Of a DNA stretch of 64,000 nucleotides, positions 28,371 through 64,000 are shown piece by piece (the first letter of the stretch is position 1; every line of letters starts with the position of its first letter). The translations under genes and the position numbers were made by a program. Location of the stretch: positions 19,372,446 through 19,436,445 of the forward strand of contig OZ014411.1 in NCBI GenBank assembly GCA_963965975.1. Reading direction: 5' to 3'. The DNA comes from Xestospongia bergquistia (taxonomy: Eukaryota > Porifera > Demospongiae > Haplosclerida > Petrosiidae). The notes below the pieces were generated by a model. That model searched no databases and was not told the origin of the DNA. It saw only the letters and a list, made by a program, of their open reading frames with translations.

Positions 28371-28374
28371 TAAC

Positions 28375-30375
28375 TTTTGTATAAGTTGAAAGATGTCTTC
28401 ATTTAAATCATCAGTCAATGTTTGTAGAAGTTAAATTATTTCAACAAAAGATTGATGTTCTATTGATAGATATAAAGTGTTTATCATTATAGTTTATTTT
28501 GTCAAACTAACAGCAAAATTTTGATCTTGTTTCTAAAGAGATCTTGCATTTCCATGTTTTGTCCATCACACATTGATGCAACAACGTCAAGAATTACACT
28601 GGCCCTCTTTTTAGCTTCATCCTTAAGTAGTTTCTTATATCAGTAACAATATAAAGGTTTAACAAAAGTAAAGGTAGTCAGCATAGTAGTTGACCAGCAA
28701 CTTCAACTTCACATGGTCTGTTTGTTGAAAATCTATTGAAAATGAAAATTAATGATAAGCATTACAAAAACAAGTGATGGCAAACATTCAGCAAGTCCAA
28801 TATCAGTAAATTCTTCTGGATCAGCATGTCTATATGTTCACGTCCATCAGTCATGTCTATGTTGAAGTCATTAGTGATGTCTTTTGTAACTACAATGTCT
28901 ACATCTTCAGTAGGTAAAAAAACTAGGTTGTGATTTCCATATAACAACATCTTGTGTAGGGTCTAATAGTTAATTATAATAGAACTACAAAAGTAACTGC
29001 ATTTCCTTAATAAAGTCATATATGGTCCAGCATCTTCTAAGCCATCATTTGATTCTGTTATCATCTAAATGTAAACATGATACTAATGCTAACAGTAGAC
29101 AAATGTCATTTATATATACAATGTCAGGTCTATCTGTTGGTGGAGGTGCCTCATGAGATGAATGCTCCTTCCTAGGGAAAGTATGGCTAAGTCATAAATT
29201 TGCCATATGTGTAATAATATACCAGAGCCATGCGTGCAATCTGTGCAATTTCTCACCAAGGTTGAGATTTGCTAAAAACTGGAAACAACACTTTCTAATA
29301 ACTTGCTTATACGTTTGAATTGAAAAAGGCAACATCTTTGCTACTGTTTACACTTCTTCCTACACACAATACAAAATATATTTAGAGTATAAACAATAAA
29401 TGGAATCCAACTAACCTTTATTTTCATGAACATCCCTATTACCTTGATACAGGAGAACATCCCCAATACTTGTAAAGCTATATCATCATTAGGATGAGCA
29501 AGGTGAAGTAAAACCTGCGATAGAAATTTCAAATTTCAAATATTATATTCTTTATAATTTCTTAATGTAAAATGAAGTATGGAAATGCAATACCAGAGTC
29601 TAGTCCAAAATATTTAAATTAATAATTTGTACTACCCAATATATCTAGATAGATATAATCTCCTATATGTCAATATAGTTGCTATTTTTCAATTAATACC
29701 TGCTCAAGTGATTGTGCATCAACTAGTGCATTTTGTAATGGGTCACCAATTGTCTCCATGTATAGCCTGAGTTTGAAGATGAATGTAGTATTAAATCAGG
29801 CTTATAACTTACTGCAAAAAGGTTTCTGGTTTGTCTCTTTTAAGGCCTGGGTTAATATTAACAATATCAGCAATACAACTCCTGAAATGACTTGTAGTGT
29901 AGTTTGTAGAAGACAGTCTAAATCTGCTCTCTCTTTACTTGTAATTGCTTGTTGTAGATGTTTTCTAAAGACTGGACTATTATAGTGATACAATATATTT
30001 AACTTACTTCACTAATGTCAAAAGTTGTCTGACATTGCCAACTATACCATATCTTGATACCTCATCAGACATTGGTCCACTATATTTGGTTCGTATGTTC
30101 CATATATTTACCTTCTCAACATCAGTTCTTACTTATAATTGATAGCCTTAACAAAGTAATGTACCATTACTATAAAGCTATAACTCCAGTTGATAATACG
30201 TTATTCACATTATGTACAGGGTTATAGAAATATAAAAAAGAATAATTGTTGTAGATTCAAGTCATTCTGAGTACACCTCTTCAATACAGAGCATCTAGCT
30301 GTGCCAATTATGTAACTACAGTCATCTGTCATCCTTTGATTAGCTTTTTTTCGTATGTAATTTTAAAATTTAAAA
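28375..30375 (-). pseudogene. IP3-receptor-like pseudogene, middle part (block 2)
   Basis: Minus-strand copy of the segment of the live gene from about 36335 to 38310, including introns. Matching landmarks are AAGTTGAAAGATGTCTTCATT, GATCTTGCATTTCC, GGTGGAGGTGCCTCATGAGA, the repeated ACAGGAGAACATC exon and the TCATCTGTCATCCTTTGATTAGC exon at its right end. Several exons carry small deletions and stops (for example around 28610-28640 and 30020-30120). It continues block 1 (22560-24513) in exon order but is separated from it by an ABCA block. The junction with ABCA intron sequence is near 30375-30385. Confidence 0.87.
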
Positions 30376-30384
30376 TTACATAGA

Positions 30385-31800
30385 CATTGCTATCTTATGC
30401 CTGATAACCTTTACCTTAAACAATGATTTAAGCTATTTTTCAAACTAATAACGTAATAATCTACAACTAAATGAAGGAAAGTCAATTTAATTATGGCATT
30501 GTTCTTGTAGTGGTGATAACAAGAGAAAACTCAGTGTTGCCATTGCCCTTGTTGGTGATCCACCTATTTTGCTTCTTGATGAACCAACTACTGGTATGGA
30601 TCCAGCAACATGACGATTGTTATGGGATGTTCTCATTGGTGTTATTAGAGAAGGCAGGAGTGTGATATTGACCTCTCATAGGTAAGAAGGATTTCAATAA
30701 TGACATGTTAATGTGATATTCTGTTTACAGTATGGAAGAATGTAAAGTATTATGTACTAGACTGGCTATCATGGTTAGTGGTGTATTTAAATGTTTTAGA
30801 AGTTTATGACATTTTAAGAGCAAGTTAGTCATTTTGTTTGTTAATGCTGTATATTTTTAAGTGATGGATAATGTTATAATAACATATGCTCTAGTAAAAG
30901 GTCAATATTGTTTTATTTCATTTTATTTTACCAGATTTGGGTCAGAGTATACTCTTCAAATAAAAATCTAACCCAAAATGACAATAACATGCAGGAAATG
31001 ACCCTGACAAATTATACAAATCTCAGCCTATTTTAATGACAGAAACAACAGCATTTGCAAGTCTAGTTCGCCACAGAATTATAATAATTTGTTGCCAATT
31101 GATTCCCAGGATCAGTTCTGGTGAAAGAACATCAGATATAATAATAATATGGAAATATTGGTACTACCTTGATTGTGACTTGACTTGATAGGAATTATTT
31201 ACTTTCAATGTCATTGCAACATTCTATATAATATTTTATTACTAAATATACACAAGTATTGTCATGTTACAGAAAAAGTCTGTAGCTAATACTTAACTTA
31301 GCTCTCAGTTATTTGTTAAAAGTTTTTTTTCTCTCTCTGCCTTAGAAGTCTGTGACGTACCAGATACCAGCTAAAAGAATGACTTGATCATATTAATTTT
31401 GTTCTATTGAACAGAGTAAGGAACAGTTGCATATAATTAACTACAGTATCAGTCAGACTACACTGAAGCAGGTAAGTTTCTCTCTACATTGTGTAATATA
31501 CAATAATAAATGGAATTATAGGGACTGGTATATAATGATACTACTTATTTAATTAACTTCAAATATTCTATTTTTATTGTAATACATAAAAATGTTATTT
31601 CTCGATATCAAATTATAGGAACTCAGTGAGAATTTTTAGTTTATCAGTATATTGTTCATATGAATGAATTATATATATATACATGTATGTGGATACTAGC
31701 AACAGTTTAATTATGACAATTATATTTTATATTTTTTTGTTAAGTTTTTATAAATTTTGCTCAAAAACAAGAAGAGGCACAACAAATATAAATACATTAA
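30385..31800 (+). pseudogene. ABCA pseudogene block 2 (exons 37-41)
   Basis: Collinear with live-gene 20820-22300. The exon 37 equivalent (30513-30681) keeps signature and Walker B but has CGA to TGA at 30610-30612 in PAT*RLLW. The exon 39 equivalent (from about 30934) has TAA in KI*PKMT and many changes. The exon 40 equivalent has TGA and TAA stops (MT*SY*F). The last exon (about 31745-31792) still reads FINFAQKQEEAQQI. Exons 33-36 are missing between block 1 and this block. Confidence 0.93.
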
Positions 31801-32064: not shown

Positions 32065-32503
32065 TTATTTTTGAAGTTCAGCTTTCAGATTCTTAATAAG
32101 GTCTCCATAGTCATTGTGAGAGACCCTTCCTCCAAGTACTTTTGCCATTCGAAGTGGAAAAAAGCAATTGTCTCGACGTTTCAGCTGTTGTTCATATTTA
32201 TATAATTTACAAGCTGTGATGAAATGAAACTTACTTTAACATCTACATACTTTTCCAGAGCATTGTGATCAAGATGATGTACATTGTCCAAATGTAGAGC
32301 AAAATAGACATAGTTCCACATGTTGTGATCATTTTTAATATGATGATCAAAACCCTACAATGAGGAATATGTAAATAAAAGATAATGTCTATATAATTGT
32401 TTAACAATAGCTACTTTAGCTTGCTGGTGTCGTTCAAATGTATCATTGTCAATACCACAAATAAAGCAATAGTTTCTTTCATCCTTTTTAACATTGTCCT
32501 GGA
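32065..32503 (-). other. C-terminal zinc finger and tail of the IP3-receptor-like gene
   Basis: Exon about 32503-32411 carries YCFICGIDNDTFERHQQAK, and exon about 32352-32233 carries GFDHHIKNDHNMWNYVYF; together they supply the CxxC and HxxxxH ligands of the zinc finger shared by IP3 and ryanodine receptors. The last exon, 32184-32065, encodes FFPLRMAKVLGG and a short helical tail. Ligand residues are all present. Confidence 0.87.
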
Positions 32504-35500
32504 GATTCATTAAATTAAAAGTTATATATATATAGTTTATGTACCGATTCACTTCTCAGTTCAGAAAATCGATCCAATAAAATGGCTATAACAATGTTGA
32601 GACCCAATGTAGTCACAATGATAAAGAAAGTAATATCAAAAAGTGTCCTTGTCCAAAACACTGTAAATGATGGACCAGATTGACCAACATAAGTCAATGA
32701 AATAGCCTATCAGAACAGAGAAAAGAATTTAACATTATTATTTTACTATAACTGTTTAGAATATACTTAAACAACTTATTAAAGGCTAATATGAAAGTAC
32801 ATGCACATTATTTGACTCACATCAAAAAACATAAATATTTATTTATACTGTTATACTTACTCCTAGTGTTTCTAACAATCCCATTCTAATAACAGAGAAA
32901 TAACACTCTATTAAAGTGTTACAAAATAGGCCTGCATTACGATCATAAAAGTTGTGTAGAAAAACAAATGAGAAGACTGCATAAAGAAATAGAACAGCTA
33001 GTCCAAGTACTCCCACAGAGATCAATTGAATAGCTGAAATTAAATTGAAATGGTCACTTTATTGAAAAAAAGATGATGAATGTGAACATACCACTTCGTC
33101 GTAATGCAGTTAAAATTAGGTCCAGTGTACGCCACTTCAAGAAAATATAGAAAATACAACAGCAATAGAAAACACCAGATGTTCCCAAAGCCAATAGTGA
33201 AAAAATCACAAAAGATATTCGATATAGAGGGGCAAAACTGAGCAAATAGAACTCAAAGCATTGCTTTTCCTTTATCTTTTTAACATAAGGTTTGTCAGGA
33301 TCATGCATGGAATTATTCCGAAAATTGAGTCTAAACAATGAAATCAATATTATCATAATTACAGATATCAAGTACACAGTAGCAGTGGTACATGTATAGT
33401 GGAAACTTTTTGAGGATAATGATTTTGGAAGTTCATCATTTGTATGTCACAAACACATATAATCAAAGCAAATCATAATAGACAAAAACTTGGGTTATAG
33501 CCTCTTTTCCATGCAACTTAAAGAAATGTGTTGACATAGTCCTCAATAGTCTTGCATGGCCATGTCTAAGACTACATCCTAGAACTGTTATTAGTTTGTA
33601 AGACCTGTGCTATTGGGCACCATTTGTATCAAAATTGGAAAAGTCATTATTTATTAAATAACTTTTGATGCACTTCTTATTTATTTAATAAATTATGCTT
33701 TATTAAGTAAATAATACATTATTAAATAATTTAAGCATAGTAGTAAATCACAAGTTATAATTATTTAAAAATATTGAGCACTAAAAAGTAAATCATAACT
33801 GTACCATTGATTGCAATCAATTTTGATACAAATGGCACCTATGGAAGTCTATAAGCAGCCATCTAGACCACGATTAAAAACTTTTGCTTGTATGTAATGA
33901 AACACAACTTATTGCATTGAAATTTTTCAGTATACAATATGTGAATCTGAATAGAGATTGCCCAAGTAAAAAACAATAACACATTATCATATATAAATAA
34001 ACATTTTTTCTCGATGTAAATCCATTTCTTTCTTATAGTTCTTTGATTTTTTTTAAAAGCGTAAATACAATAGATAGCAGTTTCAGTCATTATTTGTGGA
34101 GTAAAAAAGGATGCATTTTATCCAGTTATACTTTTATTCAAAAACCTTAATTCATCCTTTATAGGCTAACATTAATTATGTACCATCATGGAAAAGGTGT
34201 TTGTATAAATCCTTATGAAATGTTGTAAGAATTTATTAATTTTTTCTTACCAGGTCATTTATATTATTTATTTCAGGAAACAAAAAGGTAACAGCGAGTA
34301 AAATCAGTTTGTTGCATATTAATAAGTAATTATTAATTAGATTTAATGTTTATAGAGAAAGTCACAATACAATTATATGATTCTAAATTTAATTTTACCT
34401 TACAACTCACAATTTTGCTACAACTTTCGGAGATCTTGGTATTATGTTTGGCTTCTCCAGTATGAAGTATTCAGCTACCATCCATACAGCCAATATAAAG
34501 TGGATGATACCCAGAATATAGAGGAGACCATATGAAAACCATATAGGTATGTCAGGAAATATGATAACAGTAAATGAAGCATTACTATCATCAAAAGCTG
34601 TGGAACTATAAAATAAGATAGAGTTGCATAATTATGTAATTGCTTTATATGGTCTTGTGTATTGTTATTATGTAACAGCTATATAATAACAACAGAAGCA
34701 TTAGTGTTTGATAGTTTCAAGGCACTGTTAAATATATTAAGTTCTAACTACTACCACTTTACTGAAATGATAATACTACATTGTTCATTAAAAATAACAA
34801 TTTGTTATGTACTCAGAAAGATACAACTTGCAAATCAAAGGTATTGGTACATTCTATTCTCCTTATATAATAGAAATCTGAAATTTACAATAACCTTATC
34901 AGTAGTTTGTACATAATGATTTTACTCAAAATGAGAATTAAATGGAATGCTAGTAATGAGAATTTTAGATTAATTTCCTTTATAAAACCATTTTTTCCTG
35001 TTATTAACTGTTAGTGGTTTCTTTTTTGTTGCAGGTAATGTACATAAGCTTGATGGTTAATTCAAATGTGAAATAGATTACTTTGTGTCTCTGTTTTGCT
35101 CCCTAGGGATCTTGAAAAGAACCAAAATGAACAAATTCAGAAGTAATGTCAAAATGATAAGTGCACATCTACGTGGTTGCCTAACAGGAATAAACAAAAT
35201 CATAATATTTATGTGCATCAGGATTTATAAATAAATATATGTAATAACATATAATCAGATCAATAACTTACGAAGCTACTTGAGACCACTGAAAATACCA
35301 CTTGTCATTTATTTTTCTCTGTATGTGTGAATAATTATTATACTTAACTGTAGATCTCATTTAATAGCAACCTTGTGTTTCTTATTCTTTCTAATTGAAA
35401 GTATCCACTCCATGAAATCATTGACTTTATCCTCTGGTGAATCACGTTTGATTTTCTTCCTTAATGTCTGTTTTTCTTCCTCAATAAGCTCTTCCTATGA

Positions 35501-38500
35501 AACATAAAGAATGTTAACAATATAATGACATTAATGACTACACACAGATGAGTCATATTGGAAGTAAACTCTCGTTAATATCTCCTTCTTGTCCTTCACA
35601 TAGTTGATCTCAATACTGTGAGAAAATTTATGAACATGATTCCACACTGTTTTCATTTCTGTCCCTTCATATTTTTCTTCAAACTTAACTGCCACATAAA
35701 TATTTCATTATATAGCATTATTTAAATGAAATTGAATGTACCATAATCATTGACTGTAGTTCCAAGATAATCAGCAATTTTTTGCAAGACATGGAAAGCT
35801 CTTTGAAAAGAGAAAGGTGTGTAATTAACAATATTGTTATAATTTATTTACCTAAACATTCCCTTTCCTGCCTCAGTACTACCAGATGTTTTCTAAACAC
35901 AAAAAATTATTAAATTATTCCTTATTTATGGTTATGAAACACTAATATTCTTACATATAAATCATATAAATTTTTCATAGTTGTCATGAGAGCATCAATG
36001 TCAAGATCTCTAGATATGTTCACAGCAAGTTCCTTGCTTTTGGTGTCAGTCTCTTCTAACATTACTTCCAACAACTCAATAGCTGATATATGGACACTTG
36101 TTAGTTCACCAGACTATATATAGACGTTACATATTTCTTAAGCTAATATACTTTATGTAATACCTCAAAATTAATATTTCTCCTTAAAATATTATTAACT
36201 GAATCCACTACCTGACCTCTAAAGGCAATTGCTTGGTTGCTGTAGTTACCAGCACAAATCTCTATTAGAGCCTGATATTAAAATGAATTATTCATATTAT
36301 AAGAGAACAATTTGTTCACCTGGATGTTCTTTTGTATAAGTTGAAAGATGTCTTGATTTAAATCATCAGTCAATGTTTGTAGAAGTGAAATTATTTCAAC
36401 AAGAAGATTGATGTTCTATTGGTAGATATAAAATGTTTATCATTATAGTTTCTTTTGTTACACTAACAGCAAAATTTTGATCTTGTTTTCTAAAAAGATC
36501 TTGCATTTCCTTGTTCTGTCCATCACACATTGATGCAACAACCTCAAGAACTACACTGGCCCTCTTTTTAGCTTCATCCTTACTAGTTTCCTATATCGTT
36601 AAAAATATAAAAATTTATTAAATAGCAAATAAAATCGACACACTAGTTGACCAGCAACTTCAACTTCATATGGCCTAACAGTTTGACGTTGATAAGCTAT
36701 TGAAAATTAAAAGATTAGTACTACAAAAAAATAATGGCTAACATTCAGTAAGAGCAACATCTGTCATGTCTATATTGAGACCATTACTGAAGATTGTGAA
36801 GTTTCCAATATCTACATCTTCAGGAGATAAGGGCATTTCAGCTTGTGATCGCCATAAAACAGCCTCTTGTATAGGGTTCTTGAATTATTTATAAAAGGAA
36901 TAAAATAGTAACTATGTTTCCTTACTAAAACTGTATATGCTCCAGCATCTTCTAAACCATCATTTGGATCTTTCATCAACTAAATGTAAAATATGACATT
37001 AAATGCTTACAGTAGAATAGTAGAGAAATGACATCTATACATACAATCTCAGGTCTGTCCATTGGTGGAGGTGCCTCATGAGATGGACGCTTTGCAATCT
37101 CCTTCCTAGGGAAAGTTTGGTTATGTTATAAGCCTGCTATGTGTAATGATATAATAGAGCCATGTATATACACTCACTTAGGTTGAGATATACCAAAACT
37201 GGAAACAGCACTTTCTAATAATTTGCTTATACGTTTGAAAAAAGCAACATCTTTGCTACTAGTTACACTTCTTCCTGCACAAAATTAAAATTGCTTTTAG
37301 AGTGTAACCGTGAATGGATTCCAACTAACCTATTTCTTTCTGAGCATCCCTATTACCTTGATACAGGAGAACATCAAGAAAACCCAATACTTGTAAAGCT
37401 ATCTCATCTTTAGGATGAGCAAGGTGCAGTAAGACCTGTGATAGAGATTTCAAAACTCAAATATTATATTTCTTTATAATATATCAATGTAAAATTAAGT
37501 ACAAATTGTATCTAAAATGAAATAATCGAGTCTAGTCCAAAATCTTCAAATAAATATTTTATACTACCCTATATATCTAGATAGATAAAATCTCTTATTT
37601 CTCAATGTAGTTGCTATTCTTCTATTAATACCTGCTCATGTGATTGTGCCTCAACCAGTGCTTTTTGTAATGGCTCAGCAGTCTCCATGTATAGCCTGAG
37701 TTTGAAGATGAATGTAGTATTAAATCTTGTTTACAACTTACCGCATAAGGGTTTCTGGTTTGTCTCTTCTGAGGTCTGGGTTAATGTTAACTTCATCAAT
37801 TTTTTTATATACAACTCCTGAAGTGACTTGTAGTGTAGTTTGTAAAAGACCATCTAAATCTGCTCTTTCTTTACTTGTAATTGGTTGTTGTAGACGTTGA
37901 TAAATAATTCTAAAGACTGGACTATTATAGTAATACAACATACATCACTTACTTTACTAATATCAGAAGTTGGCTGACATTGCCAAGTTTGCAATTTGTT
38001 GATACCTCATCAGAAATTGGTTCACTATAATTGTTTCATATACTCGATATTAACATTGTCGATATCGGTTCTTACCTATCCTTAGCAAACCAATCTACCA
38101 TTGCTATAAAGCTAGCGCCAGTTGGTAGTATGTTATTCACATTATGTACAGGATTATAAAAAGGGAATAAAGGGAATAATTGTTGTAGATTCAAGTCATT
38201 CCGAGTACATCTCTTCAATGCAGAACAGCCAACTGTCTTAGTTATGTCACTACAATCATCTGTCATCCTTTGATTAGCTCTTCCTTCGTATGTAATTTTA
38301 AAATTTGTAACAAAGCATTGAAATTGTTTGTTAAGCTCTTGTTCATTCCTCCAAGTCTCTTCATACTGTCTTAATGCATGATTGACAAAATAGTCATGAC
38401 TGTTTAGTCTCCTGATTAGTCTCCTTGAATTCCTAAACTGATAAACAAAATATTAAGTGTGAATGAGTATTTCCCATGTTGTGATAGTACATAATTGTAA

Positions 38501-44500: not shown

Positions 44501-47500
44501 AAGTCATAAATCAATTTCTAAGGTAGGTTCATAATAAAATACTCTAAAATTTAAAATACTAACCATCATACACATGTTACATAGCTGTTTAAGAAAGAAG
44601 TGAAGAACACGTATGGCCCTAAACAATGATATATATAGCATGCCATTATTAAACATGTACTTGCTTAATTTTGATTTTGAAGATCTGATTGTTTCCAGGG
44701 ACATTTTTATCATACCGACCTTCTTGTTTGTATTGTTTATTTTGCTGTAAATTATGGTAACTGATATCTATATGATATAATATTCATTACTAAATTACTT
44801 AAAATCTTAGACCAACTTTGTTCAAGTTTGTCAGTTTCACCATTTAAAATGTATATCATAACTCCAATAATTTCTCTGACATCTTCATCTTTACAGTAGA
44901 AACCATATGACACTAGTGGTTCCATTACAGAAAACATTTGTGCCATCAATTCATTATGACCTTCAACTTCTTCTTGTGCACATAATACCTTCAAAGAAAA
45001 TGAAACCACATATTTACCACAACATGAGTAACAATAACATTACCTTATTTTTTTGAAGAAACTCTCTGATAGATTTTTGCAAGTCTCGCATTTGTTCAGC
45101 ATCAATTTCAGGAACAATTTTAAAATTATCTTCTTGGTTCATTGCCTTTATTGGATTAGGGCATATGTCACTCCATTGCTATAAACAATAATGTATTCAA
45201 CATATGAGACATGTACATATTCTATTTACTTACATAACAATGCCAGACATTATCAATATCTGTTCCACTTTCTTCCACATTCAGATCAACGTAAGCTGAA
45301 ACAATATAGTCAAAGTATGCAGATTTAAGAAGAGGATGAATTTCAGGGTCCTTAATGCAAATCAGTGCCTCTTCAAAACTAATAAAATCCCACATTTCGC
45401 AAAATAATGCAATGGCAAGTGTATTTACTCCCTATAGAAATATTAGTATATGTCATATATTAAATTATACATCATAATACACAATATACAACTAAAGTGC
45501 TATAAATTTAAGTAATCAAAATTATATGAGTGTGTCGTGATATATATACCTTGCAGACTCCACTAAAGAGTTTAAGTTGAGCAATAAAGAATTTGAATTT
45601 TCCTTCCACCTTTGCATTCTTTATTAATGAAAAACATAGAAATAACAAGTATATTAATATTTATTACATGCATACTTTGGAACAGTATTTAGTGACAGGT
45701 CCTTTGATTTCATCTGGAGATGAAAAACATAATTGGCCATTTTCATTTATTTCAGTCTGAACAAAAATATCCTACAGCAAAAGACAAGCAAAGTCAATCT
45801 GAAACCAATTCTGTGCATAGATGTACACTAAATATTTTAGCCAGGTTTTTATAATTTAATTCATTTAGTATCCAGCAGCGATAGCATTAATTTTACAGTA
45901 ATCAAATATACTTACTTCTCCCACATCACGGATAATTTCAAGAATGAGCACTAAATACAAAAGTATTACACAATACAGTGACATTTTTTTCTTACATTGA
46001 AGATGTCTGGATGGTTTACCAGCAGTGAAGCACAAAGTGCTTAAAAAATCAAGTGTGGATGGTACAGTCTGTAATCAATAACAAACAATGATTAAATGTC
46101 TCAATTAAAAACTGCTAATCTTACAAATTTTGACATAATGTGTTCTCCATATTTAGAGTTACTTAAAATTTTTTGGGTGATAGCACTAGTTTATAGAAGC
46201 AACAAAACATAAAAAATACTCTTTGTTAGCAAATGTATTAGTTAATATAAGTGAATGATACCAGTAGCAATGTAGCCATACCTTTCATCTCTTACTAATG
46301 TACTCAGAATTTGTTCTACATCAATATCATCACCAACCTAAAAACCAATAACAAACATGTTACTACAACTAAGTATCATATACATATAATTAAAAAAATA
46401 CCAACCATGATGTAAAATTGTAAATACCCTTATAACTTACTTTATTAACCAAAACATCTAAAAATCTGTCATGAGCAAGATAGAGTTGAGACTTCTTATT
46501 TGCAGAGTCAATATAACCCTGAAGTACTTTTGATACTTTTCTACATAGAGACCTATACATAATAATAAAAAATTGAGGATATAACACAGTACAATATTGT
46601 GATAAACTTACTGATCAATATTGAGAAGTAGATATGCAACAAGAATATCAACTCCCTATAATGTATGAATCAAAATTGTGAATGACATTATTAGTGAAAT
46701 GATTAGGTCAAATGAGTACAATATATTTTATGTTACCTGAGCAATTCTCAACATATTAGCTCTATTTCTCTTCTGAATTATCCACTCATAAAGATCTTGA
46801 AGAAGATTATCAAGTTCTTGAAGCATAACAGAAGATGGTGATTGCTTGCATTTCTCTGTCAACTATAAGTATTGTTCAAGAGTATTTGTGTAATACAAGG
46901 TAAAGTATAATCAACAAATATAACTTATAAAATAGTAAAACAATAGACTATAATATAATATCTTTGGAATTATAAAAATATGGCATTAACTGTATAAATA
47001 GTATATATACAAGTAGGTAAAACATTTCTAAAAAAGGAAGTAAACTTAGGAATGGTTAATTGCAGTCCTATACAAAGAATGCAAACAAGATAGTAGGGAT
47101 AGTAATTACATCATCCCTACATAATAGCATAGGAACAGAATTGAATAATATTACAGATATTATTAAGTTCATTTTTGGATATTATTTTTAAACATCTTTT
47201 GATTGTTTGTGTGACCTGGGAAAGGGATGATAGAAGGAGGCTGAGAGAAGAAAGAGAGAGAGTGTATTGAAAGAAAGAAAGTGCCACTTGTTGTGTGGTT
47301 GCAATAGTGTTTACACTTAAAGTGAGCCTCAAAGAAAAGAGACAGTGTAGCAGGTGATAGAGGACAATGTCTGCCATATATGAGGGACCCTTCAGGATTG
47401 CACATGCTTTCAGTTGCTATTAACCTCATCTAAGGCTACATCCTAAATTCCATTATCTAAGCATAACTTTAAACAATTGTAATTCTCATATTTATTTGTA

Positions 47501-50500
47501 CGTCACATATAAATTGGTAACTAATGTGTTTGGCTTTGTAGTCATCATGCAATAGAAAGATGTGATAGTGGCTATTAATGCAGCATAGAAAGTACATACT
47601 CTAAACAAAATTAACACAGTTAGGTTCTAATGTTTAGGGTTAAGGGTCTAGGGTATAGTTTTATTTTTGCATTGAAGTACATGCACATCCTGTGCCATAC
47701 AAATTGTCACTGCCTATATAAATAAATGATATTCCTTTGAACTACAATGTTTACCTTCTTCAAGTGTTCACTTAATATAGTTGTTACACCAGAGATATAA
47801 TAATAATCATGTACTAAGTCTACATTAACCTATACAATAATTAATACATATCTGTCAACTAAATTAATAGCTATAGTACCTCATCAATACGAAAATAGTG
47901 TAGTGAACTGCCATCAGTGGATTCAATTCCAAGCTAAAAAACGAATAAATGTAATTACAAATACTTCACTTTCTATTTTATTAAGTGTGTCAATTACATA
48001 AAGTTATTTTTATCAATACTTACAGTGAACCACTTATTCTCTGATGAAGGATCAACTTTAACATTTGACAGTGCTTTGGGTACAAATGATGACCCTAACA
48101 TAGATTATAGTTGTAGTCTATATTAAAGATGGACAACTACCTTGGACAGATAAATTTTTAACAGAATTAACATGTCGTAGTTGAACATATGATCCCTTTG
48201 CTATTACTTTATTTTCCTATAATAGATTAGACAGATACATACATGTTTCCTATTATTTTTACTACACAAATAAATATATACTTTTATGTTTGCTGCCTGT
48301 TCAATTGATACAAGACTGAATGTTATTTGAGGATCAGAAGGTTGTCCAGGCTCTAACTTCTTTAACACAATCTAAACAGCAAAATTGTTGATGATACTAA
48401 ATTTATAGCAAGCTACTAACCAAAGATTGTTGTCCTTCCTCTCCTGGTATCACAGCCAAGTATTGCTGACTTGGCAAATGTTTAATGCGACATTTTTCAT
48501 CCATTTTAAAATGATCACCTACAATAAAATGAAAATAAAATAGATTTATATAGTCAAACTAGTGATTACATTATGATAACATGTACAGTTGAACACAAAC
48601 CTAAGAATGGTGTTAGCACTTTTTCAAGCTGCCAAAAACAGTCTCCTGAAAAAGGAGGAGCCTTTTGAATTCCATGGAAACTCCCTCTGTGCCGAGCACC
48701 CACTAAATTAATTTTAAAAGATTGTAATTCGTACACATAAGATAATTAATTTCAATGGTTCATGAGCATTAGAAGTCAGTTAAGAATGGTAGAGCAAGGA
48801 AATAAATTCAAGGTGCACCAGAACATTGGTATGTGTAATTATTTGTATGGTTAATAATTATGCATTGAAATAAAGCAGTGAATTACAAGACTTTTGTAAC
48901 TTTAAAGATGGAAAGTTGTCTGAGGATTTTATATGTTTAACCATGTCACCAAGAATACTATTTGAGTCATTGCAATAACACTTGCAAAGGTATTGCAGGC
49001 AATCATTGTAACCAATTATTAATTTCCGAAATTAGTACTTGCCATATTGCTCCTGATGCCTATTGCTGTTATTGCTGCCTATAGCTATGTTTATGAAATG
49101 ACAAATAGACATACCAACACACACATATATGCATACATATGTGGTCAAACATCTTAGGCCTGCCTGGTACGTTGCACACGAGGAAATAAATGCAACTAAA
49201 TATCAAAATTAAGATGCATACATAGGTTAATAAGTCTTAGAATAGATAAGTTAGTAGATAGATACATAGTTACATAGATAGATACATAGATAGACATATT
49301 GATAGATAGATAGATACATAGATAGAGAGATAGGTAGATAGATAGGTAGATAGATGGATGGATGGATATATATATATATGTTTTGGTAAATAAATAAATT
49401 AATTATGTAATGTGCTTGATTAGAAACTTGCTATCCTCATTTGCAATCTGAGAAATAGTTCTACTAAATGCATAAAGACTTCTATAGATTTACTGCCACT
49501 AAACTATGTGATGACTTGCTTATGAATATTGAATCTAATATTAGATGATGATTCTGTAGCTACTATCACCTTCATTAATTGATTCATCTTCCTTTACAGG
49601 ATCAGGTACATGTTCCATTGAAGCACATCCAGCAAGATATGCTTCACGCTTCATATCAAATAACATAACCACACCACATCCCTATTAGTGTAAATATATG
49701 ATATCAAAAACAAATTTTGTAAATTCACTTACTCTAAGTGCCTTGTGGTTGATCTTAGATGCCCTTGCCTGATGGTAGATAGCAAAGGTTGAATCAGTAA
49801 CAGCCATCTTCAATTCATACCTAAATAATGACATAGAGAAATATTAAATTGTTGAATTAATTTTAATAAAAATAACAACATTATAATTATCTTTCAGAAA
49901 ATATTATACATGTTAAAAAAGAAAGATGTAGTAGACCTGTCTGTGAGAGAATTCTTGACAAACAATGCATGATGCTCTTTCTTTGAAACAGAAGCTAACT
50001 TTACTTTGTCTTTTGGTAATATCTAGAGGAAATACATGAAAATTGACTGCTCAGCTTTAAAATATCTTACTTCATCTCCTTTTTGTTTTTCTGGTTGAGC
50101 AGGTAAAATTCTAAAGACACAAGTTTCTTTATCAAATTTATCAACTGGTACCAGTGTAGCCTAAACAAGGAGAGAAGTTCAAAGTTATTTGAAAAATGTA
50201 ATAAGCAACACATTAAATTGTAGAAGTCAACCAAACCTTATCAATGGTTGAGATATTAATGCAAACAATAATGCTAATGGTAAATTTATTGTAAAAGTAA
50301 AAAATAACTTACAGTGGGATTAAGGAATCCTTTTTCACTGATTGATGGTAGTGACAAATACTTGCTGGATGAAACATGTAGAAGCTAGAATTATTAACAT
50401 ATTTACATTTACAGTGAGAGTATCATTAAAAAAGTACCTTAATCTTACGTCCATAGACTAGATCACGATTAAGAGCTTGAACCTGACACAACAGAATCAA

Positions 50501-53270
50501 TCATCATTATACTTTTTCATGCACATATATCACTATTAAAATATATTTGGTCAGTTTAACCAATATAATTGGCTATATAGATTGCATGCATATATTTGAT
50601 GAAAACTGAAAGCAAAAAATTTGTATTATACTGTGTTTATTGACTATCTGAGAGTACGCTAGAAATAAATCCAGTATGATGATTTTTTTTCAGCTGGGAA
50701 CTTGGAATTGTTATGTCATGAGTTCTGAACAACAAGGAAGTCCTCCAGAACATAATAAAAAAGTTGTAATGATATTTAAATCTGTTAGAATTCACAACAA
50801 TTGATAGCACTGTACTAACAAGTCACAAATTCAGAAAAGTTAGCCAGCATGGTTAATATACCAAAATCCTCTTTCAAGAAGCAGGAAATTAGTCTGGATA
50901 CAATTGCAAATCAGTATACAAGTATGGATATTATGCAACCAATCCCAATACTCTTACTTCTTGTTCGTGTACTATATATTTGAAATACTCAAAGTTAAAC
51001 CATCATAGTTGCAGCTACTGTGTGTCTGATATTGGTTAAATGAACCGATCAATTTTTACAGTGACATATATTTATATATGTGTGTGTATACAGTGACAGA
51101 TTAGAGTTTTGAGGGATATAGCTAAAATTATTTTGAGAATGATAATAATACTGCAGATAAATCAATTATTTACGTATACAGGATGAAGCAATGAAACTTA
51201 AACCAATTATTATTAATTGTCAAGTGGATACACAGAGTGAATTGAAATACATCAAAACAGATTTTTGTGTAAGTATACATTTTTATTAAAACATAACATT
51301 ATATAATACATCATTTCTAGGAATGCAAATTACTATTGTCTTTAAGTCATAGTTTACCTTTGGAATTTCCAATGGAGACGTTGACCTGCAAAGAATAAGT
51401 AAACTAAAAGCTGACACTCATCAACATAATGCACTATAAGCATGTAAAGCAAAATGCTAGATACTCAATGAACCAGTAGTAAGAATTTGAACAATTTTAA
51501 TACCTTACATGTAAGTTAAATTACTTTAATTTGTGGGATGAAGTTCAAAGTGTTGATAAAACATTATAAAGTTAATGATATCATACCACAAACATGTCAT
51601 AGTCCAGCTTACATACTTGCATGATGATGTAAGTCACAAATAGTGTAATGTAGCATGTTATAAAATGCACTAAAGTCGCTGCGGTCTTCCTCAAATGACG
51701 TTACTCACGTGATGCGCAAGATGATTATCGATGACTCAGCATTTCTCTTCGATCAAAGGGAAAAAGCTTTGCTTTTTAGTGCGTCTACTGGGTACTTGGC
51801 ACTCTAATTGACAAAAAAATTAATGACAGCTGACAGCTATGGTGCTAGTATTTTTAGTTCGCGCTCAATGTATCGACAAAGATAACTGCCAAAAGTTAGT
51901 AAAACTGTCATAACTTTAGTGTTTTGGCAAAAACTCTCACTTTAAAAAATTGGAAAATGTCATAAGCTGTATGCAGGAGATTTTTATTGAATTTTCGAGT
52001 CTTCACTGAAAGCTGTGCTTTTTTTCAAAGGTTTTTCAGACTTTTAAAGCTTTTTGTTCTTTTGACGCTAAGAAGTACAGAAGTTTTGCTACCGTCCACT
52101 ATAGTTTGGTAGCTACCAGTGCCTTCTTTGCCGACTTAAAGCAGTTCAAAGCCATTTGCCGGGTAACAGACACGATGTCATGCCATTTCGTTTAATCCCA
52201 TTTTGTTTATATGGCTATAAACCACAGACACACACACACACACAGAGACTACAGTAACCCTCGCTATGCGCCCACGCACGGCGAGGTTAATTATTCAGCA
52301 TTTTGGTTTCACTATACAGTAGCTCAGAATGTTAGCATGTTTTTGTAAGGATTCCTATGTATAAACCTAAGATATTGAATATGCTTTGATGTAGACTGTA
52401 TGTAGACTGAGATTTGTAAAGTCCCACTGGGCCAGGTCCAAAACTTTGGTTTTACCACTATGTCACAGTACACTGTATACGTATCTGTAATACAGTTAGC
52501 CCTTGCAGTTGTACCATATGAACAACTTATATCAGTTGGCATGTACAATTATAATGACACACAATAATTATAATATAATTATATTGAGTACTTCACATGA
52601 GTTTTGGATTCCACAGTAATCCACTGATGTAAACTACAAATCAGTTGGTTAATGTAACTTTTCAGTTTATAAACTGATTTAATTCATAATTATTGTACAC
52701 TTACATTGTATCAGCATTGTCTGGTAAAACTTGAAAGCAAGCAACTGAAGAGATTAAGAAAAAATTAAACAATATAATTACAAAGTATGTTCAAAATATT
52801 AAATTTATATGTTTTAAAGTCTTTCAGTGCTTATAGCATCAGCAACAATTAACATTACTGGCTAAGTCTGTCTTGATCACTTAAAAGTCAACATCAATGC
52901 ACAATATGAAATCAATTCTTTTTGGTTATGTGCACATGGTAGGTGTTCATGCAGAGTTTACTCATTCAGTATTGGCCCTTATGCCACTTTCAGTAATATA
53001 GTAGCAGTAGCACCGGACTCAAACATAATTAAGTATAGAATTTCTAACTTACAATGTACATTTGGAAACACAGGATCATTCCACACCACTAGTTCAGGAT
53101 TATTTGCAGGAAAAAGAGTAACAAGTCTATTAATCAAGAGAGAGTATAAATTTATATATAAAATAAGTATACGCAACTATTTACCTGGAATGCTGTGAAA
53201 AAACATATCCTCCTGCTTCAGTACAGTACAAAAGAATAGTGTCACCTTCTGAAATGTGTTCACTATCCAT
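32065..53270 (-). CDS. IP3-receptor-like intracellular calcium-release channel, divergent
   Basis: A very large minus-strand gene of some 50 short exons; I read most but did not resolve every junction. The start ATG is at 53270 (MDSEHISEGDTILLYCTEAG, matching the IP3-receptor opening SFLHIGDIVSLYAEG) and the stop at 32067-32065 (LKAELQK*). In order: N-terminal trefoil and MIR-like region (53270-47755), RIH domain (about 46866-44750, with QLKLFSGVCKG and LDFLSTLCF), a helical region with a duplicated exon cassette (42870-38580), a coupling region (38450-35270), six transmembrane helices (35181-32545), and a C-terminal zinc finger and coiled tail. The family works as tetramers in the endoplasmic reticulum. 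It is an IP3 receptor rather than a ryanodine receptor by size and domain set (no SPRY or RyR repeats seen). The selectivity filter is atypical. Whether it binds IP3 is open. Confidence 0.88.
32545..35181 (-). other. Transmembrane and pore exons of the IP3-receptor-like gene
   Basis: Reading 5' to 3': helix 1 exon (about 35181-35080, ALIILTLLLNLFILVLF), loop and next helix (about 34612-34404, YGLLYILGIIHFILAVW), two further helices (about 33420-33091, ISFVIFSLLALGTSG and YCCCIFYIFLKW), exon 33033-32861 (VLGLAVLFLYAVFSFVFLH and the pore helix CNTLIECYFSVIRM) and exon 32706-32545 (last helix TFFIIVTTLGLNIVIAILLD, then RFSELRSE). The pore segment across the last junction reads GLLETLG/AISLTYVG. 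The segment DRFSELRSE matches IDTFADLRSE of known IP3 receptors, fixing the register. Confidence 0.85.
33616..33839. mobile_element. MITE-like element in a pore-region intron
   Basis: Perfect 18-bp inverted arms, CCATTTGTATCAAAATTG at 33620-33637 and its complement at 33818-33835, enclosing about 180 bp of AT-rich non-coding DNA. The paralogous pseudogene intron (about 23700-23790) has neither the element nor the flanking insert, so it arrived after the duplication. Confidence 0.72.
38580..40590 (-). other. Exon cassette, copy 2, in the IP3-receptor-like gene
   Basis: The same six-exon order as copy 1: about 40588-40520 (ELMLTTSYQERLNILQK, first exon shortened at its 5' side), 40460-40325 (ELLQLLSVTDMLSTCAEE), about 40260-40155, about 40100-39962 (QCSLLITSLTTTLSVVDK), 39896-39660 (DDDGVPLNSFLFYLVDGIIP) and 38707-38581 (LVHTHLAVFKTTKEQMHIW). 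All read open. The long intron before the last exon also matches its partner in copy 1 (gataaagccatttttgtatg versus gatgaagccacttttgcata), so this is a segmental tandem duplication. Confidence 0.82.
40753..42870 (-). other. Exon cassette, copy 1, in the IP3-receptor-like gene
   Basis: Six exons in gene order: about 42870-42735 (ELMLTTTFQKRLNILQR), 42685-42550 (ELLQLLSVTDMLSTCAEG), about 42510-42382, 42330-42193 (HCSLLITSLTTALHGINK), 42132-41900 (DDDGVPLSSFLFYLVDGIVP) and, after a 1-kb intron, 40875-40753 (LVQTHLAVFKTTKEQMHLW). All are open with usable splice sites. An equivalent set follows at 40590-38580. Confidence 0.82.
47041..47200. repeat. Copy of the intron-36 MITE-like repeat
   Basis: Shares ggaatggttaattgca, ctatacaaagaatgc and catccctacataatagca with 20286-20400, but in a rearranged order, and holds its own inverted pair GTAGGGAT and ATCCCTAC at about 47092-47120. 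It lies in the 0.9-kb intron between the exons at 47755 and 46866, where no coding sequence is seen. Confidence 0.5.
49255..49380. repeat. (GATA)n microsatellite
   Basis: Imperfect gata/gatacata repeats turning to ggat and then to a short (TA)n run. It lies in the intron between exons at 49574 and 48703. Confidence 0.9.
51670..52290. other. CpG-dense block in a 5' intron of the IP3-receptor-like gene
   Basis: By eye some two dozen CpG dinucleotides occur here, against very few in the surrounding kilobases. Examples are gtcgctgcggtc, tgacgttactcacgtgatgcg, gttcgcgctc and ctatgcgcccacgcacggcg. There is no convincing ORF. In a genome depleted of CpG by methylation such a block often marks an unmethylated promoter; it could also be a young mobile insertion. 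It also holds an (AC)n run at about 52222-52244. Confidence 0.5.
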
Positions 53271-59399: not shown

Positions 59400-62300
59400 T
59401 TATTTATTGTTAACATTTGCCTTTAAAAATAGAGAATGTAGAACTTTCATTGAATTGATGATCTCTAAGTGTTCACTTTTGAGTTCAGCATACAATTCTT
59501 TAATAAGATCTACATTGCTGTTGTCACAGACTCTTCCTCCAAGTACTTTTGCCATTCGAAGTGGAAAGAAACAATTCTGGTGATTTTCTAGCTGTGATTA
59601 CAAGAATTAGCCTTTTTAAATTTAAAGAACTAAATTTTCTTACATTATCATACACATATTTCTCCAGGGCATTGTGATCATTAGGATGTATAGTGTCTAA
59701 ATGCAGGGCAAAATACATATAGCTCCACATGTTATGATCATATCTAATATGATTATCAAAGCCCTATACAATAATTTATAAAATCATTAATATTCCTTAA
59801 TATCATTACTTTAGCTTGCCAATGTTGTTCAAAAGTGTCATTTTCTATGCCACAAATAAAACAATAGTTGTTCTCATTCTTTTTAATGTTGTCCTGTTAA
59901 TAAATTAATTGAAAGTTATATAGCAAATCTACATACCTCTTCACTTCTCAGTTCGGAAAATCGATCCACTAAGATAGCAATTATAATATTAAGACCCAAT
60001 GTTGTTATAATGATAAAAAAGGTAACATCAAAAATGGTTCGTGTCCAGAACACTGTAAATGTTGGACTACCTTCACCCAAAGTCATTGGGAGAGCCTGGA
60101 TAAAATCAGAGACCAAATTTACTAAACTAATTTATCATTGCTTATTTATAAAACAGTACGAAGGCTTAATTTCTGCCTAAATTTAAATATGTACACATAA
60201 TTAGAAGTGTCATTCTTAGCTACTAACTTTTATATGTTAACATTAGTTACAATTTAGTGGTTTTAAAAGCACTACTTACCCTCACAGTAAATATCCTTTG
60301 ACTTATATATGTCAAATGTAAATATCTCTTAACTATTACATATTTGAATATAAATATCCATATGGGTACTAATAATTTAGGGCTCAAAGTAAAGTAATAA
60401 GCTACTAGTCAATAACTGAAAGGTAATTAAGTGGCATATCTGTATAACATTTTCTTAATAACTTACAGTGCCTAGTGTGTCCAACAATCCTACTCTAATA
60501 ACAGAGATATAACACTCTAATAGAGTCTTACAAAATAGGTTTGTATTGGAATCATAAAAGTTGTGTAGAAAAACAAATGAGAAGACTGCATAGATAAATA
60601 GAACAGCCAGTCCAAGTAGACCCACAGAAATCAATTGAAATGCTAGGATAAATTAGTTAATAAACAAAACTACAATTATATTTCTACATACCACTTCGTC
60701 GTAATGCAGTTAAAATCAGATCCAGTGTAGGCCACTTCAAAAAAATATAGAGAATACAACAGCAATAGAAATAACCTGATGTTCCCAAAGCCAATAGTGA
60801 AAAAATCACAAAACATATCCGATACAGAGGGGCAAAACTGAGCAAATAGATCTCAAAGTATTGCCTTAATTCAACATTACATTCATTGATATCTTGGTTG
60901 AAAGGATTCTGATTCTTTAGGAAATTGGAACTATTAAAAGTAACAAAATTGTATGTAGAAATTTCCATGTACATATGTAGTATATCAACATGTAAACACA
61001 AGCTCTATCATATATTGTAATATATTTTGTGAACAAAACAACCTTTACTTTTACAGCACATTGGAATAGACATTTTTGATTCTCTTAGTACAGAACAATT
61101 ATATTATATACTTAAAAAATGCAAAATAGAAATTGTCCTGATTATTCTGAAATACTGCAACAAGATATTAAAGGTAAAGTTGGCAAAGACAGTTGAACAT
61201 ATACAAAGTTTCAGAGATAAATGTTTGTTGTTTAAGTTATGTTTAGCTTAGTTTCATTTTAATTTTCACTTTGTATAATAACAATAGAATATTATTTCAT
61301 AAAGGGGTATATACCCATGTAGTCATAAAACAATCTTTAAGATTGCATATGACATGTGTTCTGAAACTATGGCATAGTTGCATGTAGAACTTCAACAAGT
61401 ATGTATTCATCTAGGTTACTATGTAACTTACAATTTTTTTTTCACTTCTGCTAACTCTAAGTCTATTCTTGGCAATAAAATGTTTGGTTTTTTCAATATG
61501 AAGTATTCAGCTACCATCCATACAGCCAATATAAAGTGAATGATACCCAGAATGTAGAGGAGACCATATGAATACCATATAGGTATATTAGGAAATATGA
61601 TAACAGTAAATGAAGTATTATTGTCATCAGCAAGTGTGGAACTATAATATAAAAAAGAAAACATTCACTGATAATTATGTGGCAGTCAAGAGTGTCAACA
61701 AGACTACTTAACTGTATCAAGACTATGACATTGTTCTTTAAAAAGGAATTTAGGATGCAACATTGTCATGTTTAAAATTTAGCATATTTAATTAAATTTC
61801 ACGCTATTGACAAATGACTCTACAACAAACAGTGAAGCTGTTGTGAACAATATATTGTCCTCTAGAGCTGCTTTTAAAAATTAGTCAGAAACCTAATAAT
61901 GCTATAGGTGTACTTGTCTACTATATTGCTACTAATTGTTAAATAATTGTAAGAATATTTATTTATTCACATAAAACAATCTAAAAAAAGATTACTTTGT
62001 GCCTTTGTTTTCCTTTTGGGGGATTTTAAAAAGAGTCAAAACAAACAAATTCAGTAGTAATGTCAAAATCATAAGTGCCCACTTTCGTGGTCTCCTAAAC
62101 AAAATAATTGTATTATAATTACAAAATGCACAACTTATATATTCATAATTAACAATGTATCACGTAGTCTGACTATAAACAATCAACATCAATACAATAA
62201 CTACAATTACACTTTTATTCAAACGTAACTTACGAAGCTATTTGAGACCATTGGAAATACCACTTGTCATATATCATCCTCTGTATGTGTGTAAATATTT

Positions 62301-64000
62301 AAATACATGTAAGGTGAAGTTCATTTAATAACCTTATGCTCTTTATTCTTTCTAATTGAAAATATCCACTTAATTAAGTCATTGACATTGTCCTCTGGTG
62401 AGTAACGTTTGATGTTTTTCCTCAAAGTTTGCTTTTCTTCATCAAGAAGCTGTTCCTATGAATATCAAAGATGTTACACAGTACAAAATAGACAGTGACA
62501 TTCACTTTGTACCAGTGAACACTGTGGCAGTTACTATAGCATTGGCCAGTGTTCATTCAGTGTTACAAAGAGAATGTAATTACCCTTTTTTGCAGGGTAA
62601 AGATTGTAATTAACAAAGAACGTACTGAGGAATCAAAACGGAAATAGACTCTTGTTAGCATCTCTTTCTCATCCTTGACATATCTAACTTCAATACTGCG
62701 AGTCAACTCATACACATAATTCCACATGTCTTTGTCATTTTCTTCAAATTTGACTGCCAAACAATTATAAAATCCTTAGTTAATTGAAAATGAATGTTAC
62801 CATAATCATTTACTGTTGTGTTATAATAGTCAGCTATCATCCGTAGCACATGGTAAGCTCTGTTTTTAATATATAAGTATAATGGTGTTACATTATATTA
62901 TGGCTTTCAAAATTTCATTTACTTGAACAATCCTTTCTCTGCTTTAGTATTATCAGATTTTTTCTAAACAAAAGAATCACTAAATATTCTTTCTTTTTAA
63001 TTTTTGTACTTACATTGTATAAATCTTTCATAGTTGTCACAAGAGCAATAACATCAAGATCATTAGATATACCCACAGCAAGGTCTTTGCTTTTGTCATC
63101 AGTCTCCTCTAACATTACTTCTAGCAACTCAATAGCTGATATGCAAACACTTGTTAGTTCATCAGACTATATATAGACATTACAAGTTTCTTAAGCTAAT
63201 AGACTTTATGAAATACCTCAAAATTAGCATTTCTCCTTAAAATTATATTTATTGAATCCACTACCTGACCCTTAAAGGCAATCTCTTGGTTGCTGTAGTT
63301 ACCAGCACAGATCTCTATTAGAGCCTATGTTATTTAAATGAAATTTCATATACTAGATAAAATAATGTTAACCTGAATGTTCTTTTGTATGAGTTGACAA
63401 GTACTCTCATTCAAATCATCAGCCAATATTTGTAGAAGTGTAATTATGTCAACAAGAAGATTGATGTTCTATTAATAAATAACAAACAGAGTACTATAAA
63501 CTTCAGTTTTGTTAAACTAACAGCAAAACTTTGATCTTGTTTTCTAAAGAGATCTTGCATTTCTCTGTTCTGTCCATCACACATTGATGCAACAACTTCA
63601 AGAACCACACTGGCTATCTTCTTAGCCTCATCCTTACTAGTTAACTACATCAGTTCAATTATAATTCTTTATCAGACAGTATAAACAATAAACTCACAAG
63701 GTCTCCAGTAACTTCAACTTTGTATGGTTTAGCAATTTGATAAATATCTATTGAAAATAATATAATTGACACTACAAGTAAAAGTATTATCTAACATTTG
63801 GCAAAGTCTTCTCCATCTGGACTATGTTCGAAATCTTTTTCAACAGCTATGTCTTCATCTTCAGGAAAGGATGATACTTGATGTGAAACCTCAAGAGATA
63901 ACTGCTTTGATATTCTCTTCCTAAAGAGAAATGGTTTTGTTAAGTGTATTGAACATGTTGTAAATTGTCTTACCAAATTTGAGGTTTCCCAAAACTAGAA
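59400..64000 (-). CDS. Second IP3-receptor-like channel gene, C-terminal half (5' end beyond window)
   Basis: A paralogue of the 32065-53270 gene with the same exon order, running out of the window at 64000. The stop is at 59402-59400; the tail is longer than in the paralogue (adds SEHLEIINSMKVLHSLF and KANVNNK). Present are the zinc finger (YCFICGIENDTFE, GFDNHIRYDHNMWSY), last pore helix exon 60095-59940 (TFFIIITTLGLNIIIAILVD), the exon ending at 60477 (FVFLHNFYD, then GLLDTLGT), the transmembrane exon about 60905-60693, the loop exon 61640-61430, helix 1 exon (about 62097-62010, ALMILTLLLNLFVLTLF) and coupling-region exons to 63976. No stops interrupt the exons I read. Its filter is divergent in the same way as that of its neighbour. 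It looks functional, but the N-terminal half cannot be judged. Confidence 0.87.

Follow-up and report, generated by a model that had tools for sequence, protein, structure and literature searches.

The stretch of Xestospongia bergquistia DNA analyzed here (64,000 bases of contig OZ014411.1, hereafter the window) carries on its minus strand a gene that begins, as read by eye, probably at 53270 (MDSEHISEGDTILLYC) and reaches its stop at 32065, a span of ~21 kb. Its sequence predicts a large channel-type protein of the superfamily that comprises the inositol 1,4,5-trisphosphate (IP3) receptors (IP3R) and the ryanodine receptors (RyR), which we tentatively place in an expanded third branch of that superfamily. 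According to two earlier reports, metazoan IP3R and RyR have a common selectivity filter, GGG[V/I]GD (PMC3213138; PMC7399828). In this focal gene, the initial annotation had read GLLETLGAISLTYVG in place of GGGVGD across an in-phase exon junction, and spliced alignment confirms both the exons and the phase. The first exon (32861..33033, minus strand) encodes the fifth membrane segment (S5), the pore helix, and the filter's first half (AIQLISV...CNTLIECYFSVIRMGLLETLG), and ends at a gtaagt donor. The second (32545..32706, minus strand) begins with AISLTYVGQ after a gatag acceptor and supplies the rest of the filter, the luminal turn, and the sixth segment, S6, running to FSELRSES. The filter thus reads GLLETLG|AIS across a clean phase-0 join. 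The intervening intron (32707..32860, minus strand; 154 bases, gtaagt...gatag) was inspected for a hidden exon that would restore GGGxGD; it has stops in all three frames and encodes the filter in none of them. The absence of a canonical filter likewise holds for the window at large: scanned in all six frames, its 64,000 bases contain neither GGGxGx nor GGx[VILA][GA][DE], a motif split by an exon junction lying outside the scope of that scan. When aligned with MAFFT, ETLG stands opposite SGGG and the remainder of GGGVGD faces a gap plus AI. The register is kept at the Cys of the pore helix, at the Gly preceding the filter, and at Arg, Asp, and Phe of S6, and S6 aligns with ITPR1 and RyR2 without a gap, which bears out the earlier statement that the pore helix and the last helix align with IP3 receptors. 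Because the same type of motif recurs in 29 stop-free copies, the focal one included, chance or sequencing error can be excluded, and the replacement of the focal filter is confirmed.

The C-terminus of the focal gene, 298 codons without a stop, is recognizably of the IP3R/RyR type. Its last 296 residues reach the Pfam Ion_trans model at 37.1 bits (cut-off 25), and a phmmer search of PDB with them recovers RyR2 at an E value of 8e-30, ITPR2 and ITPR3 at ~2e-29, and ITPR1 at 4e-24. The closeness to IP3 receptors noted initially therefore has to be qualified, as the focal pore lies about equally near to RyR. A profile of six family pores retrieves ITPR2 (1e-38) and RyRs (4e-36), and other kinds of chains, namely, bacterial ion transport proteins, appear only from 2e-4 among the best 60 of 104 PDB rows. 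A polycystin/TRPP-type pore, suggested by its LGA-like filter, was considered and rejected, since in those best 60 of 104 rows only ITPR and RyR chains precede the bacterial proteins. Six hydrophobic segments can be read by eye at the expected positions of the focal protein. Its N-terminal composite passes the Pfam cut-off for Ins145_P3_rec (32.7 bits; cut-off 23), comes close to that for MIR (25.3; cut-off 25.6), does not reach Pfam RIH, and matches ITPR2 in PDB at 1e-4; the exon model behind it was fitted to an IP3R profile, such that these domain matches are not fully independent. The corresponding composite of a paralogue on C15, joined by hand and treated as one gene, passes the Ins145_P3_rec, MIR, and RIH cut-offs.

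When the assembly to which the window belongs (146.46 Mb, 21 contigs) was searched for exons of this kind, at least 137 matches were obtained, which we grouped by eye into 41 clusters. Of these, 40 were fetched, the weak cluster C5:4359889 being left out, and as the search scores only the best candidates, the family counts given here are lower bounds. Spliced alignment assigns 38 of the 40 fetched loci to one family with the focal gene, the other two being a locus on C9 (L054) and one on C7 (L053). For 29 of these 38 loci, the focal gene among them, the modelled pore is stop-free and covers the filter. The remaining nine are broken or partial: a single stop interrupts L031 and likewise L040; L023, L029, L046, L051, L055, and L056 have stops and partly gaps; and L024 is a fragment. 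GGGxGD occurs in none of the 29 stop-free family copies. Across the 40 loci, GGG is found in the filter only at L054 (GGGIGD) and at L053, where the splice model gives GGGIAD rather than GGGIGD. A motif scan of loci L021-L062 likewise gave filter-type matches only at these two; three further matches lie outside the family pore, those at L023 and L025 being on the strand opposite the gene, and that at L027 comprising a run of Gly codons on the opposite strand and one stretch on the gene strand, upstream of the pore and followed by a stop. The C9 gene is a canonical IP3 receptor, its 563-residue N-terminal composite matching ITPR1 at 1e-180, and the C7 gene is RyR-like. When the genome was searched with the C9 pore, 27 matches were obtained, of which the best apart from C9 and C7 had an E value of 3e-5, the family loci coming next. 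No relatives from outside were confirmed among the viral contigs (23 pattern matches) or the prokaryote genome contigs (27 pattern matches) that were searched. The initial annotation was hence correct in seeing a replaced filter on a recognizable IP3R/RyR architecture, but what it described is a family member and not a lone IP3 receptor that has lost its filter. Regarding the two canonical-type genes themselves, a phase-1 intron splits the RyR-like filter at C7:7905.2 kb, and L054 (C9:3366591-3366773) has one additional S6 residue within a single exon (VILIIFQNLIFG versus VIIIVLNLIFG).

The family is shown to share a signature of its own, R-x-G-L-L-[D/N/G/E]-[T/S/G]-[L/F]-G followed by [I/L]-P, which stands in place of GGGxGD. 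Counting at each site only the family loci in which that site is present, the pore-helix Arg is kept in 34/34, the two pore Cys in 33/34 and 35/35, and the Gly that starts the filter and the Leu after it in 33/34 each. The next position, which we term the ring position, is variable (D 13, N 13, G 5, E 1, P 1; n=33), the single P belonging to L039, which carries one extra residue. It is followed by T 14, S 8, G 5, N 4, and I 1 (n=32), then by F 16, L 13, I 2, and S 1 (n=32), and finally by the last filter Gly, which occupies the third-Gly position and is retained in 28 of 33 loci, with K in three and R in two. The loci with Lys and Arg fall in one sub-clade of the pore tree, and four of the five are stop-free. 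They also sit in one cluster at C2:10.14-10.36 Mb, with K at L030, L031 (the copy with a stop), and L032 and R at L034 and L035. Beyond the filter, the S6 Asp and Phe are each present in 34/34 loci, and in the C-terminal finger both Cys are kept in 34/34 and the two His in 35/37 and 35/36. An intron interrupts the filter at the same position in 33 family loci and measures 43 to 371 bases. In 18 of the 33 it is shorter than 52 bases, too short to hold an alternative filter exon. The C9 gene, the canonical one, has a coding exon that extends beyond the filter.

Phylogenetic analysis places the family as one clade outside both the canonical IP3 receptor and the RyR-like gene. In a first pore tree of 37 rows (five of the 38 family loci being too short or gapped for inclusion), the 33 family rows form one side of one branch (support 100/99), C9 pairs with ITPR1 (98/93) and C7 with RyR2 (100/97), and the family falls in neither pair. 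The same arrangement was recovered in a second tree of 31 rows, from which six broken, partial, or near-duplicate sequences were dropped and alignment columns 63-91, those of the filter, were removed (family, 100/98; C9 with ITPR1, 99/94; C7 with RyR2, 100/96). Constraining the family to group with C9 alone is 7.8 log units worse, a borderline result in the approximately unbiased (AU) test (p 0.049), and grouping it with C7 alone is 11.5 log units worse (AU p 0.017); these groupings were chosen after the first tree, and the tree program issued a long-branch warning. Descent of the family as copies of the genome's own IP3 receptor is accordingly disfavored by the AU p of 0.049 though, in view of the long branches as well, not firmly rejected. 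The trees are unrooted and compatible with the family being sister to the whole IP3R or to the whole RyR group; hence, the family may be an ancient third branch, or it may derive from one of the two receptors by fast evolution. Within the family, the first split in the first tree is that of four genes on C15.

These C15 genes also bear on the question of ligand binding. We compared the residues at 11 IP3 contacts, which we take to be R265, T266, T267, G268, and R269; R504, K508, and R511; and Y567, R568, and K569, with the numbering counted from the ITPR1 alignment and identities counted by script. The C9 receptor is identical at nine of the 11, differing by T266Q and T267S. The one C15 gene modelled, for which the N-terminus of L061 and the pore of L058 were taken as one gene with the intervening 6.5 kb unread, is identical at six (R265, R269, K508, R511, R568, and K569) and has R504K, so that its seven basic contacts comprise six identities and one R-to-K change. 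The focal model is identical at only four (G268, R504, R511, and K569), with R568K as a conservative change and with R265I, T266N, T267E, R269S, K508N, and Y567N. Ordinary gating of the focal protein by IP3 is doubtful on this basis, because both Arg of the beta-part of the pocket and one Lys of the alpha-part are replaced. In C15 members, a channel with an altered filter that opens on IP3 is plausible, because the modelled one retains nearly all of the basic contacts, and the C15 genes are thus the best candidates for IP3-gated altered-filter channels. The four lie at C15:3917-3982 kb, and exon matches to Ins145 and to RIH occur in all four and to MIR in three, some of them below cut-off.

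The ratio of nonsynonymous to synonymous change (Ka/Ks, Nei-Gojobori) ranges from 0.14 to 0.49 across 24 chosen pairs, which suggests selection on the proteins; for the focal gene and its neighbor L022 it is 0.38 at a Ks of 0.48. In a neutral simulation of the 298 focal codons (1000 runs each), the frame remained stop-free in 14.4% of runs at 0.05 changes per site, in 1.2% at 0.1, and in 0.3% at 0.15. A lone mutated IP3 receptor or pseudogene, which was among the explanations considered, is ruled out by the 29 stop-free copies together with the Ka/Ks values.

Considering these observations jointly, we tentatively favor, with confidence somewhat short of even, the view that the family represents intracellular tetrameric channels with a rebuilt filter that still pass cations. 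Four subunits would assemble as in IP3R and RyR within an intracellular membrane, and the T/S-L/F-G segment would line the pore with its backbone and its hydroxyls, in place of the GGG carbonyls and the Asp ring. Directly ahead of that segment there might be an acidic or amide ring (D/N/E). Cation passage would then continue, with a weaker Ca2+ preference and lower conductance. Permeation might further differ among paralogues, depending on whether the ring position is D, N, G, or E and, at five loci, on the Lys or Arg at the third-Gly position. The focal channel could be gated by Ca2+ or another ligand, as in RyR, instead of or besides IP3. Simple loss of function is disfavored, because the motif common to the family stays conserved. 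The family probably passes ions by rules other than those of the known animal calcium-release channels.

Several points weigh against a conducting cation channel. Conservation need not mean conduction, as a regulatory or scaffold subunit would likewise be conserved. Depending on the alignment chosen for the copies with one extra residue, the column of the filter Asp holds I or L in 30/33 loci or, if taken one residue on, Pro in 25/33, with Asp in neither case. The 5/33 loci that have Lys or Arg in place of the third Gly are a poor fit to a Ca2+ pore; this sub-clade fits better with a modifier subunit or with a pore of altered ion preference. With respect to gating, the focal protein keeps three of the seven basic contacts identically and a fourth as an R-to-K change, and loss of IP3 binding is not established, the pocket comparison being limited by alignments in which the focal exons were fitted to an IP3R profile and the C15 gene was joined by hand. 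Finally, four of the 24 pairs contain a broken copy (L023, L029, L031, or L051) and yet give Ka/Ks values of 0.25 to 0.40; hence, the low ratios are no proof for each gene, or that both copies of a pair are working.

The main alternative, although we consider it rather unlikely, is that the proteins are regulatory or dominant-negative subunits. These would co-assemble with the canonical IP3R on C9 or the RyR-like channel on C7 and tune where it is located, how well it conducts, or how strongly it prefers Ca2+, in the manner of modifier subunits of other tetrameric channels. S6 and the C-terminal finger domain couple subunits in IP3R and RyR, and both are kept in the family, in which the filter has lost its Asp; moreover, the genome pairs a single canonical IP3R and a single RyR-like gene with at least 29 stop-free non-canonical loci. 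Against such a role, the shared and positionally conserved motif suggests that these proteins still shape a pore of their own. A distinctly less probable idea is that the altered filter collapses the pore, leaving non-conducting proteins that serve as endoplasmic reticulum scaffolds or ligand sensors. It could account for the loss of GGGxGD from all 29 stop-free copies and for the five of 33 loci with Lys or Arg in place of the third Gly, but the pore helix, S6, and the filter motif are conserved together, and a scaffold would have no need of the motif. We regard as very unlikely a change in the ion itself, whereby the copies would form a series from cation-permeable to poorly or even anion-permeable and the expansion would have diversified permeation. 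The spread of residues at the ring position and at the third-Gly position (K 3, R 2), as counted above, and the grouping of the Lys and Arg loci in one sub-clade are what such a series would predict; still, this argument is drawn from sequence only, variation inside a single tandem cluster could be close to neutral, and one of the copies, L031, contains a stop. An artefact, whether from pseudogenes, from a wrongly joined exon, or from an alternative exon that restores GGGxGD, might be suspected from the nine broken or partial loci among 38, the internal tandem duplication in the focal gene, and the ~37.4-46 kb left out of its exon modelling, but it is exceedingly improbable for the family as a whole given that the filter motif appears in no frame of the window, that filter introns are below 52 bases in 18/33 loci, and that Ka/Ks is below 0.5 in 24 pairs.

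A replaced filter is not unprecedented in the superfamily, because variants have been published from Paramecium and from oomycetes. The Paramecium report describes 34 channel genes of the superfamily, CRC-I to CRC-VI, of which three have the full filter and others GG[V/I]G or variants, with practically no filter similarity in CRC-VI (PMC3213138). The sponge family resembles these CRCs in being a multi-gene set of the same superfamily with non-canonical filters (PMC3213138). It differs in that the ciliate genes derive from whole-genome duplications, whereas the sponge genes form tandem clusters, share a motif of their own, and exist beside a canonical IP3R and a RyR-like gene. For some oomycete ITPRs, the filter is reported as GGGLG(G/S), for PKD2 as LGD, and for PKDRR-A as LGA (PMC7399828). 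The last two recall the (L/F)GA of the sponge family. The oomycete ITPR variants described there nevertheless retain GGG, unlike the sponge family, and the PKDRR pores are of the polycystin type (PMC7399828), whereas profile search shows the sponge pore to be of the IP3R/RyR type. Among the matches listed in the literature, mostly outside subscription journals, there was no large, tandem-expanded, motif-sharing clade in animals.

Compared to the IP3 receptors (ITPR1-3), the sponge family has the same channel domain, pore helix, S6, and Cys2His2 C-terminal domain, probably together with an N-terminus of the Ins145_P3_rec/MIR type, and the paralogue L032 runs on into what appears by eye to be a coiled-coil-like tail, a further likeness. 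It is set apart by the replacement of GGGVGD, by the 4/11 IP3 contacts in the focal model, and by forming a separate clade. The pore and C-terminal finger align with RyR about as well as with ITPR2 and ITPR3; here, the differences are the replacement of GGGIGD, again a separate clade, and size, as neighboring copies on C2 are ~9.65 kb apart, whereas a 5,000-residue RyR chain would take 15 kb to encode. We also entertain, as a doubtful possibility, a broader scenario in which the family is a third superfamily branch as old as the IP3R/RyR split and lost from the animals usually studied. Under this scenario, the branch would have its own filter and be represented here by ~30 channels with differing filters, some of them still binding IP3, with both permeation and gating diversified. 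With ~30 natural variants of the filter on a common scaffold, in a genome that also has ordinary members, the family would make the role of the filter in large-conductance channels testable. It also raises the question of why a nerveless animal such as a sponge has one ordinary IP3 receptor and many altered relatives.

The rest of the focal gene, all on the minus strand, was reconstructed with differing degrees of support. Downstream of S6, spliced alignment gives three exons, namely, two of the C-terminal domain, with the CFIC of the Cys2His2 finger (32415..32498) and both finger His (GFDHHIKNDHNMWNY; 32235..32354), and the last coding exon with the stop (32065..32184). Upstream of the pore lie exons for the S4-S5 region (33092..33329; spliced alignment, best paralogue match E 4e-31) and the S2-S3 region (34411..34605; paralogue conservation at E 9e-31, also in the spliced model), and a probable S1 exon read by eye from the sequence (QPRRCALIILTLLLNLFILVLFKIPREQ; 35079..35181). 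The central exons (35272..37435) correspond to an RIH_assoc-like and linker region, as judged by paralogue conservation and the spliced model; the query was assembled from focal open reading frames (ORFs), such that the absence of stops is partly by construction. The locus L022 aligns to this central model over all 438 positions without a stop, and RIH_assoc itself is weak (19.9 bits at 36429-36566, below cut-off). Profile spliced alignment places RIH-like exons, which include what corresponds to the alpha part of the IP3-binding core, at 45983..46862, and the spliced model and Pfam place the beta-trefoil/MIR-type N-terminal exons at 48163..50384. The likely first coding exon (53184..53270; MDSEHISEGDTILLYCTEAGGYVFSQHS) was read by eye as an ORF, its end not being fixed, and matches an ORF of the paralogue L036 (62.5% over 24 residues, E 9e-5); the N-terminal spliced model uses a different frame from this ORF. 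Several small exons that this model places in the interval 53.2-50.4 kb are doubtful, and exon-by-exon modelling leaves out ~37.4-46 kb. The central part of the gene contains an internal tandem duplication (40119-40490 and 42345-42715, ~2.2 kb apart, 81-85% identical).

Other parts of the window hold further family sequences. The C-terminal half of the next member, L022, occupies 59477..64000 on the minus strand, where spliced alignment yields a stop-free model of positions 1-297 with the filter GLLDTLGT|ALPM. At 16271-21226 and 25883-30786 there is a tandem duplication with a spacing of ~9.6 kb, 87-97% identical in the listed blocks, near which family fragments at 22.5-24.5 kb and 28.3-30 kb look like broken copies. 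A degenerate family copy with broken frames (CFICGIKNDKFE, TKDHNIWNYIYFALHLD) lies at 400-1650 on the plus strand, in the direction opposite to that of the focal gene. Imperfect 28-29-base repeats form a run at positions 57015-57309, in the stretch that separates the focal gene from the copy that follows.

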